NCBI GenBank assembly: GCA_944349895.1
Contig: CALVNQ010000001.1
Coordinates: 1 to 48,947 of the forward strand
DNA from: an uncultured Clostridia bacterium
Lineage (GTDB): Bacteria > Bacillota > Clostridia > Christensenellales > UBA1242
Length of the DNA: 48,947 nucleotides
Direction of reading: 5' to 3'
The number at the start of each line of letters is the position of its first letter. Position 1 is the first letter of the stretch. The notes beneath the pieces are model-generated. The model was not told where the DNA came from and searched no databases. It saw only the letters and a program-made list of their open reading frames with translations. Of the stretch, positions 16,950 to 19,388 are shown piece after piece. A program made the position numbers and the translations under genes.

Positions 16950-17459
16950 ATGGAATTTAGAGGAAGACAAACTCAAAAATGCCCAAGATGTGGTGGCAAG
17001 GCTCTTATTAATCAGTACAAGTGTCCTGATTGTGGGCTAATTTTTGCTAAACTTGATATGGCTACAAATAAAGCCGCATCTCAAAGGTATAAAAATAGAG
17101 AAAAAAGCGCAATTGTTTTTGTTAAGAAAGTGCCTATTGATTTGAAAAGATGGAAATTAATTTTATACACTGTTTTATTTGGTTTGTTTGGTGCGCAGTA
17201 TTTTTATACTAAAAGATGGTGGTGGGGTTTATGTTATATTTTAGGTTTCACGCTTTTGTCGGTGTGTGTTATTTTTAATGCGCCTTTACTTAACATTTGG
17301 GATGGGGGGCTTATTAGTTTCTTTGGTTTAATTGTGGGTGTTTATGGAGTTTGTTGGATGTTTGATATATTTAAAGTGTGTTTAGGTAAATTTAAGATTC
17401 CTGTTTCTCTTCCTAAAAATGAATTAAATGCTGTTATATTATCCAAGGAGGAAGATTAA
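16950..17459 (+). CDS. Zinc-ribbon and TM2-domain membrane protein
   Basis: The product has 169 aa. An N-terminal zinc ribbon uses CPRCGG and CPDCG (residues about 10-27). A basic linker follows, then a TM2-like pair of helices with the signature [18 protein letters not shown] near 80-97, and a further helix to about 150. TM2 proteins are small membrane proteins of largely unknown function. The gene is headed by a strong promoter with no leader and is followed after 1 nt by mnmA, which has its own AGGAGG site inside the 3' end of this gene, so the two form an operon. Confidence 0.8.
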
Positions 17460-17460
17460 A

Positions 17461-18531
17461 TTGAGAATTGTTGTTGGTATTAGTGGGGGGGTTGATTCTT
17501 CTGTTGCCGCTTATTTGCTTAAAAAACAAGGCCATGAAGTTATCGGTTTGTTTATGGTAAATTGGGAAGAGAAAGATGGTTCTTGTACTGCTGAAGTCGA
17601 TTATGAGGATGTTAAAAGAGTTTGTAATAAACTAGATATTCCTTACTATTCGGTCAATTATTCTAAAGAATATTTCGATAGAGTTTTTAAATATTTTTTA
17701 GAGGAATATAAATTGGGCAGAACTCCTAACCCAGACGTTTTGTGTAACAGAGAGATTAAGTTTGGCCCATTCTTAGAGCAAGCAAAAAAATTAGGAGCAG
17801 ATTTTATAGCTACAGGTCATTATGCGAAAAAAATAGAAAAAGACGGTAAATTTTACTTGGCTAAGGCTCATGACCTTAATAAAGATCAGTCATATTTTTT
17901 GAATCAACTGTCTCAAAAACAGCTTGCTAGCGTAATTTTCCCACTTCAGGATATCGATAAGCCAAAAGTAAGAGAAATCGCACATAATTTAGGTCTTTCA
18001 ACAGCAGAGAAAAAAGATTCTACAGGTATATGTTTTATTGGCGAAAGAAATTTTAAAAATTTTCTAAAAGATTATTTGCCCGCTAAGCCTGGCAATATCT
18101 TAGATTTAAATGGACAAATAGTAGGTAAACATGACGGATTGATGTTTTATACTCTTGGGCAAAGAAGAGGCTTAAATATAGGTGGGAAAAAAGGTGGAAA
18201 TGGGGAAAGATGGTTTGTTGTTAAAAAGGACCTTGTTAATAACAATTTGATCGTTTCTCAAGGGGAAGAAGATGCTTTATTTTCTAATGGACTTTATGCT
18301 AATCAAATGAATTGGATCCCAGAACTGCCAAAAGAAAAAAGCTTTGACGCTTTCGCAAAATTTAGATATAGACAGCCTGATCAAAAAGTTAAAGTTTTTA
18401 TTGAAAATGACAAAAATATTAAAATCGATTTTTATGAAAGACAAAGAGCTATTACTCCTGGACAATTTGTGGTCCTTTATGATGAAAACGGGCTTTGCCT
18501 AGGTGGTGGCGTTATTGAAAAAGCATATTGA
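17461..18531 (+). CDS. mnmA: tRNA-specific 2-thiouridylase MnmA
   Basis: MnmA thiolates U34 of Lys, Glu and Gln tRNAs using persulfide sulfur. The PP-loop SGGVDSS lies at 8-14. The catalytic Cys95 is in [12 protein letters not shown] and the second catalytic Cys191 in [12 protein letters not shown]. The central and C-terminal beta-barrel domains follow. The length of 356 aa is normal. The start is TTG 17461, supported by AGGAGG at about 17445 and by the universal [11 protein letters not shown]-terminus. The stop overlaps the -35 box of the next promoter. Confidence 0.97.
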
Positions 18532-18575: not shown

Positions 18576-18959
18576 ATGAATATAGAAAACCTTGTAGAAG
18601 ATATAAATGAATCATATAAAAACTTTATTTCAGATGTTCGCAATTTTTGTCGTCAAAACCCGGAGGCGACTTTCCTTAATAATTTTTTTGAGGGATATTT
18701 AAAGGATAGTTATTTTGATATTAATACTAATGAAAAACCAGCAGATATTTATAAAAATATTAAGGTATCCAAGAAGAATTTTAAGGGAATTTGTGATGTT
18801 GTTAATGAATTAGTTGAAGCTTCAGTAGAGAAAAATTACGATAACTTAAATTATGAATTATATTCTAATATTATTTTGAGTGAGAATGATGTAAAAGACA
18901 AATTTGATGAAGCCTTGACTGTTATTTCTAATCTTATAGGACCTAAAACAGAAATTTAA
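18576..18959 (+). CDS. Acidic helical protein of unknown function
   Basis: The product has 127 aa, is acidic and Asn-rich and is probably all-helical, with no signal peptide, membrane segment or recognisable motif. The start ATG 18576 is supported by an AGGAG site and a strong promoter of its own, and a terminator begins at the stop, so it is a monocistronic gene. I do not recognise its family. Confidence 0.7.
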   Translation: MNIENLVEDINESYKNFISDVRNFCRQNPEATFLNNFFEGYLKDSYFDINTNEKPADIYKNIKVSKKNFKGICDVVNELVEASVEKNYDNLNYELYSNIILSENDVKDKFDEALTVISNLIGPKTEI

Positions 18960-18982: not shown

Positions 18983-19011
18983 TTGACAAAATTTTTAATT
19001 TTTGATAAATT
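18983..19011 (+). promoter_or_regulatory. Promoter of tRNA-Ser, now upstream of the 93-bp repeat array
   Basis: TTGACA at 18983-18988 and TAAATT at 19006-19011 are 17 nt apart, predicting a start near 19018, about 3 nt before the first GCAGAGG repeat start. That is the spacing expected for a tRNA gene placed directly at 19021, but the intact tRNA begins 279 bp further on. Confidence 0.75.
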
Positions 19012-19020
19012 ATTTCCATT

Positions 19021-19299
19021 GCAGAGGTGTCAGAGTGGCCATACCCCAAAATATAATAAATATATTTTGGGGACCCCGAACGAATTCGACCACTCTTGAC
19101 CTTCGAAGAATATGCAGAGGTGTCAGAGTGGCCATACCCCAAAATATAATAAATATATTTTGGGGACCTCGAATGAATTCGACCACTCTTGACCTTCGAA
19201 GAATATGCAGAGGTGTCAGAGTGGCCATACCCCAAAATATAATAAATATATTTTGGGGACCCCGAATGAATTCGACCACTCTTGACCTTCGAAGAATAT
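19021..19299 (+). repeat. Three tandem 93-bp units containing the tRNA-Ser 5' end, a hairpin and an inverted tRNA arm
   Basis: The units start at 19021, 19114 and 19207 and differ only by a few substitutions. Each begins with the first 18 nt of the downstream tRNA-Ser, continues with a perfect 12-bp hairpin (CCCCAAAATATA / TATATTTTGGGG, loop ATAAA; 19044-19072 in unit 1), and carries ATTCGACCACTCT, the exact reverse complement of tRNA positions 19311-19323. GGTGTCAGAGTGG (19026-19038) and CCACTCTTGACC (19090-19101) can form an outer stem, so each unit is a nested palindrome. The stretch 18959-19519 holds only this array, the tRNA, and promoters. No protein is likely: the frames across it are repeats of 31 codons because 93 is a multiple of 3. 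Confidence 0.97.
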
Positions 19300-19388
19300 G
19301 CAGAGGTGTCAGAGTGGTCGAATGTGCACGCTTGGAAAGCGTGTGTGGTTAACAGCCACCTCGGGTTCGAATCCCGACCTCTGCGCCA
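19300..19388 (+). tRNA. tRNA-Ser(GGA)
   Basis: The acceptor stem GCAGAGG pairs with CCTCTGC, followed by discriminator G and an encoded CCA. The anticodon arm CACGC-TTGGAAA-GCGTG gives anticodon GGA, reading UCC and UCU. A long class II variable arm (GTGG / CCAC) and the T-loop TTCGAAT confirm serine. All arms are intact. No promoter lies immediately upstream; the likely promoter is beyond the 93-bp repeats. Confidence 0.97.

Follow-up and report, generated by a model that had tools for sequence, protein, structure and literature searches.

Tandem palindromic units built from tRNA pieces at a tRNA-Ser(GGA) gene, an instance of a genus-wide and apparently undescribed repeat family in tiny-genome gut Clostridia

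The tRNA-Ser(GGA) gene of the window, i.e. of the whole stretch of 48,947 nucleotides that was analysed, follows the gene mnmA and is separated from a promoter-like sequence by a tandem array (19020-19317, period 93, 3.2 copies, 98% match; Table 1). A 127-aa open reading frame between mnmA and the array (18576-18959) has no Pfam match. The first-pass annotation had described three tandem 93-bp units, each composed of the first 18 nt of tRNA-Ser, a perfect 12-bp hairpin and a 13-nt antisense stretch. This description was borne out base by base, and all parts were found again in their places. The three units, located between the promoter and the intact tRNA gene, are 98-99% identical. In each of them the 13-nt antisense arm is the exact complement of 19311-19323, and the antisense stretch extends, imperfectly, toward nt 1 of the tRNA. 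One further step had escaped the first-pass annotation: on the 3' side of the hairpin the sense tRNA sequence returns for some six bases (CGAATG, or CGAACG in unit 1) before the fold-back begins (AATTCGACCACTCT..). Since sense bases resume past the hairpin, the latter is lodged inside a copy of tRNA nt 1-25 that is followed by its inverted copy (X-hp-Y-Y'-X'). The earlier view that the units derive from the tRNA gene is supported. The whole unit is predicted to fold into one three-way-junction palindrome (-35 kcal/mol, z = -6.2); this fold and that of 370 nt (z = -12.3) both exceed chance.

Table 1. Features at the tRNA-Ser(GGA) locus of the window
Feature	Position	Strand	Basis or remark
mnmA (tRNA 2-thiouridylase)	17428..18531	+	Pfam PF03054, PF20259, PF20258; anchor for finding the locus in relatives
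Sigma-70-like promoter TTGACA-17-TAAATT (promoter-like)	18983..19011	+	Sequence; identical promoter abuts tRNA-Ser in unit-free L065, L072; remains ahead of unit 1
Unit 1 (X-hp-Y-Y'-X'-leader)	19021..19113	+	
Unit 2	19114..19206	+	
Unit 3	19207..19299	+	
X, sense copy of tRNA-Ser nt 1-18	19021..19038; again 19114-19131, 19207-19224	+	
hp element, unit 1, lodged at tRNA nt 18/19 (D-loop)	19041..19080	-	R1 match 40.4 bits
hp element, unit 2	19134..19173	-	R1 match 32.9 bits
hp element, unit 3	19227..19266	-	R1 match 40.4 bits
Perfect 12-bp hairpins of units 1, 2, 3	19044-19072, 19137-19165, 19230-19258		
Antisense arm, unit 1	19084..19096	-	Exact for tRNA nt 12-24, imperfect on to about 19107
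Antisense arm, unit 2	19177..19189	-	
Antisense arm, unit 3	19270..19282	-	
Intact tRNA-Ser(GGA)	19300..19388	+	

It is extremely improbable that the array is an artefact of assembly. The assemblies are short-read assemblies, and 6 of the 28 tRNA clusters of the window's genome lie within 100 nt of a contig end, which makes copy numbers unreliable; the numbers of units given here are those of the assemblies. However, the same structure is present at the same locus in assemblies of independent projects (L081, L094, L100), SNPs distinguish the units and the flanks are clean. In the window's genome, ends within 100 nt of tRNA genes, found in contigs C5, C11, C12, C16, C17 and C21, are far above expectation. 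This pattern suggests that unresolved tRNA arrays break these assemblies at tRNA genes.

Comparison of the locus across related genomes, as proposed in the first-pass annotation, yielded empty, single-unit and multi-unit loci. The tRNA-Ser loci of relatives were located via mnmA; these relatives are uncultured Clostridia, and wider matches include records labelled Candidatus Caccopulliclostridium and Christensenella. One unit and a remnant are present in L100, two units in L081 and one in L094. In the close relatives L065 and L072 there are zero units and the promoter directly abuts the tRNA; such closely related empty loci confirm the earlier claim that the units were inserted behind the promoter. 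Carriers are interleaved with non-carriers in a tree of MnmA, at least three changes being required, and the empty L072 is the sister of the filled L100 (support 100/96). The antisense arm matches the tRNA-Ser of each host (CCAC/GTGG in the window, CCGC/GCGG elsewhere, ATTAGA/TCTAAT in L094), and in L094 this agreement with the intact tRNA holds even outside the reach of the unit's sense arm. Several units are common to different species at the same tRNA and were therefore inherited, not newly formed there.

The hairpin element (hp) has the consensus TC-GGGGT-CCCCAAAA..TTTTGGGG-T-GA. An exact-pattern search with the hairpin core matched at 33 sites, distributed over 19 of the 112 congeners, and the reversed pattern used as a control had no match. 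A covariance model (R1) found hp in 97 of the 112 congeneric genomes. Order-wide, 107 of the 396 genomes had a match, and they belong to 34 of the 142 genera sampled; all these counts rest on rough E-values and on metagenome assemblies. All nine matches in the window's genome lie at five tRNA genes (Ser-GGA, Leu-TAA, Leu-AAG, Glu-CTC, Ile). For eight further genomes, picked among hp carriers, 78 matches were listed and 58 of them measured for their distance to a tRNA gene: 43 lie within 500 nt, and of the 15 more distant ones 9 can be seen to lie within tRNA fragments, in many cases at the end of a contig. Overall, about 90% of the hp copies of the relatives are beside a tRNA gene or within a tRNA fragment. 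An ordinary dispersed palindrome unrelated to tRNA, which the first-pass annotation had named as the case that would speak against its reading, is thus not what is found in this genus, where hp is concentrated at tRNA genes. Its suggestion of a palindromic mobile element stands in so far as the hairpin is a dispersed family; a restriction to tRNA-Ser does not, since hp is concentrated at many different tRNA genes. The array is one case of a genus-wide and apparently undescribed family of tRNA-anchored palindromic repeats in tiny-genome gut Clostridia.

Some further repeats were seen in the course of these comparisons. At L150 (G100) hp lies between halves that resemble a dispersed repeat (CATTTCGAC..GTGGAGAAATCT), and no tRNA is nearby. 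A second palindrome, GGAGCRAAC..GTTTGYGACG, often directly follows hp (L016, L030, L031, L042, L268) and looks like another small repeat family. More large palindromes (GCGGGGACAACYARAAWTT..CCCCGCG) occur near tRNA-Ser or around hp (L006 1330-1410 in G036; L285 and L287 in G078).

Where tRNA fragments flank hp, the element resides in the D-loop (between nt 18 and 19 in Ser, 13 and 16 in Leu) or in the T-loop (56 and 58 in Glu, 59 and 60 in Met) of a partial tRNA copy that is paired with an inverted copy. In upstream-type units the sense 5' part, whose D-loop contains the hairpin, precedes the antisense part; in downstream-type units the antisense part comes first and is followed by a sense 3' part that has the hairpin in its T-loop and runs through CCA. 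The intact tRNA is retained alongside the units. Other hairpins may replace hp in units (Lys, Phe, Ile, Gln, Met). Pieces of at least 12 nt of a tRNA gene were present in its own 600-nt flanks at 10 of 38, 16 of 38 and 14 of 37 tRNA genes of three genomes (40/113 in total), compared with 18/1,288, 50/1,272 and 31/1,242 pairings (99/3,802 in total) in the control with flanks of other isotypes; outside the clade, such self-pieces were found at 2 of 32 tRNAs. When alleles were compared symmetrically, the flank fragments matched the host's allele better in 60 cases and that of another species in 18, with 77 ties. An exception is the downstream Ile unit of the window's genome (L193, G000:C14): its acceptor end is CATCTCTACCA, the present tRNA-Ile has CACGACTACCA, and CATCTCTACCA is also found in displaced Ile halves of genome G053, which would be expected had tRNA-Ile later changed or been replaced. 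Local tandem arrays are present at tRNA genes for Lys (186 bp, 100%), Glu (128 bp, 96%) and Ile (143 bp, 96%) as well as for Ser (93 bp, 98%), and these arrays are recent.

Two single loci of the window's genome may be added. At L193, the tRNA-Ile locus, there are two upstream units with different hairpin cargo, placed in the anticodon loop. At L162/L185 (G000:C8) the intact tRNA-Leu(AAG) gene is followed downstream by another, nearly full-length copy that has hp in its D-loop. A general targeting of hairpin loops by hp was rejected on the enclosing-stem statistic, in which complementary flanks were not in excess over mismatched pairs.

Searches of the Y1, reverse transcriptase and integrase families identified no enzyme responsible for the units. 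The Y1 transposase (PF01797) is present in 13 of the 112 congeners, in which the median number of hp is 6 versus 4 (p = 0.026, uncorrected); being missing in the window's genome and only weakly associated with hp number, it was discarded as the driver. Reverse transcriptases occur in 26 of the 112 genomes, none of them the window's, and a retroelement product was likewise discarded as there is no association with hp number among the 112 genomes. At least one tyrosine recombinase gene is present in every genome but one. Integrase number was rejected as a predictor of hp load: it is not significantly correlated with hp number in the 112 genomes (rho 0.17, p 0.08), and 20 of the 25 genomes with at most one integrase-family gene still carry hp. 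In the window's genome no integrase is near the arrays, the only full-length PF00589 gene and one fragment being elsewhere, and no mobile-element gene was found near the Ser array. Ten array loci gave no Rfam match other than tRNA. No phage record matched the unit, two plasmid matches were at chance level, and a viral 17-mer match, within a phage-like coding region of a viral contig, was dismissed as chance. Genome G053 harbours an integrative element with a tyrosine integrase and a MobL relaxase at tRNA-Ile (L305:1-5300, L304:8600-9174). This element seems to carry in a complete tRNA-Ile whose acceptor stem differs, and the displaced old tRNA-Ile 3' half lies with hp units near the end of another contig.

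We tentatively read the units as selfish palindromes that arose by local inverted duplication of tRNA ends and insertion of hp, with later expansion between direct repeats; among the readings considered this one ranks first, and a cassette moved by a recombinase second. The end of a tRNA gene would be duplicated locally in inverted orientation by hairpin-driven template switching in replication, at the tRNA's own hairpins, and hp would then insert into a loop of the spare tRNA copy. Direct repeats of 18 bp or longer between unit and tRNA, which are sufficient for slippage, would subsequently allow tandem expansion, either by this route or by unequal exchange. Both arms would be held to the host's own tRNA by correction of the palindrome and by conversion with the intact gene. 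The build of the units, the hp family with its tie to tRNA genes, the loop positions, the matching arms and the occurrence of units among relatives were observed; we infer these steps and their order, and also that the units are neutral passengers, presumably tolerated since one intact tRNA is always kept. Template switching, hp insertion and palindrome correction together would explain why the arms are inverted and why they agree with the gene beside them. The association of hp with tRNA genes, its recurring position in tRNA coordinates, the own-allele fragments and the local tandem arrays count in favour, as does the failure of reverse transcriptase or integrase counts to predict hp number. 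The slightly higher number of hp in Y1 genomes, the lack of a general excess of complementary flanks and the inheritance of units across species count against it, and neither an intermediate nor a new event was observed among the genomes compared. Fold-back synthesis alone does not explain the constant loop placement of hp or the spread of one hp family to many tRNA species.

The precise loop position would be easier to understand, and with it the restored tRNA, if a recombinase moved the unit. A tyrosine recombinase, either Xer or an integrase passing through, would insert a non-coding cassette, [hp-Y-Y'-X'-leader-X], at a dyad of the D-, anticodon- or T-loop, and the terminal X would restore the tRNA as in genomic islands. 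The precise break point in D- or T-loops, the tRNA that is always restored, the original promoter that remains outside the first unit, the nearly universal tyrosine recombinase gene and the genuine island at tRNA-Ile of G053 are in line with this model. A circle of only 93 bp would approach the limit that the stiffness of DNA sets, a point that weighs against it. Stem-loops of tRNAs are known integrase sites, their D, anticodon and T loops are proposed borders of integrase cleavage, and pTN3-like integrases use the 5' half of the gene (PMC8371274). On the other hand, the arrays of the window's genome have no adjacent integrase, integrase number does not predict hp number, each tRNA would need a separate cassette, and antisense arms are missing from known att fragments. 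We regard insertion by a recombinase as rather unlikely. The units might then even constitute a new class of minimal, gene-less mobile cassettes homing to tRNA genes. A recombinase of the host (Xer-type), or a borrowed one, would insert such hairpin elements of about 90-190 bp at loop dyads (D-, anticodon- or T-loop); the missing tRNA end that they bring along would restore the gene, and tandem arrays would build up upstream or downstream of the tRNA. This, however, is an unlikely outcome.

Scars of islands would require successive integrations, each of which pushed a half-tRNA outward, followed by deletion of most of the island, with hp falling into the dead copies. Displaced half-tRNAs do occur at the genuine G053 island, the fragments reach the tRNA's own end like attR/attL pieces, and a comparable tRNA fragment is described in an archaeal population (PMC3293823). 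Yet the remnants are always short, bear antisense arms and have no gene remains, the tandem copies are 96-100% identical, and the Ser array has no mobile-element gene nearby; we consider such scars improbable. With the earlier proposal of a decaying integration site the partial direct copies agree; the antisense arms and the missing nearby integrase in the window's genome do not. Very improbable is a device at the RNA level, in which the units, transcribed ahead of the tRNA, serve as decoy or antisense and tune maturation of tRNA-Ser. In the predicted equilibrium fold the full transcript would misfold, the acceptor 3' strand being taken by unit 1 in place of the tRNA's own 5' strand (mean P 0.98), the full MFE is -163 versus -141 kcal/mol for separate folding, and in L094 the antisense follows the intact tRNA where the unit's sense arm does not cover it. 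However, co-transcriptional folding would close each unit first, the sister of a carrier lacks units (L072 versus L100), and the same design is found downstream of tRNAs and at unrelated isoacceptors, with varying hairpins. Apart from the equilibrium fold nothing supports the regulatory switch suggested in the first pass, and sister species differ in whether they have units. Given local closure of the units during transcription, their erratic presence in sisters and the downstream copies, the array is regarded here as tolerated rather than as a switch.

Broken copies of the gene itself accompany roughly a quarter to two fifths of the tRNA genes in the three genomes analysed for this, which have only about 0.8-0.9 Mb. 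Even tRNA genes, which are essential and often single-copy, can thus be a main breeding ground of repeats, and the natural series of empty locus, one unit and array is available for studying how palindromes originate and are corrected. What the units reveal may be a homing cassette not known before or else a strong mutation process driven by hairpins, and they suggest a reason for the breaks of short-read assemblies at tRNA genes in these uncultured bacteria.

Our literature search found no description of such tRNA-built palindromic repeats, and each of the nearest kinds fails or lacks a defining feature. Fragments at attachment sites of islands, made by tyrosine integrases (PMC8371274, PMC3293823), resemble the units in the partial direct repeat that accompanies an intact tRNA, in the D-, anticodon- and T-loop positions and in the restored gene, all of which were found here; they differ in that no integrase gene or island remains adjoin the Ser array and in that the units have antisense arms, hp and the form of tandem units of about 90-190 bp. 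Repetitive and double hairpin elements of fungal and sponge mitochondria look mobile by a mechanism that is not known; they share conserved stems, variable loops and insertions differing between close genomes, but, unlike for the present units, neither a construction from host tRNA arms nor a fixed place in tRNA loops is described for them (PMC2800124). With REP/REPIN sequences and their Y1-type RAYT the units share the short, dispersed, non-autonomous extragenic palindrome with a conserved, asymmetric 5' tag (GGGGT here; R1 model, 97 of 112 genomes). They differ in that the window's genome has no Y1 transposase (PF01797), in their location in tRNA fragments and in tRNA arms that match each host gene. 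As regards MITEs, the units do have inverted arms, which are tRNA-derived, and a search of the Y1, reverse transcriptase and integrase families found no parent transposon. In reduced genomes, Rickettsia palindromic elements are tolerated within genes or close to them; the units share this tolerance and differ in being largely made of the target tRNA itself.
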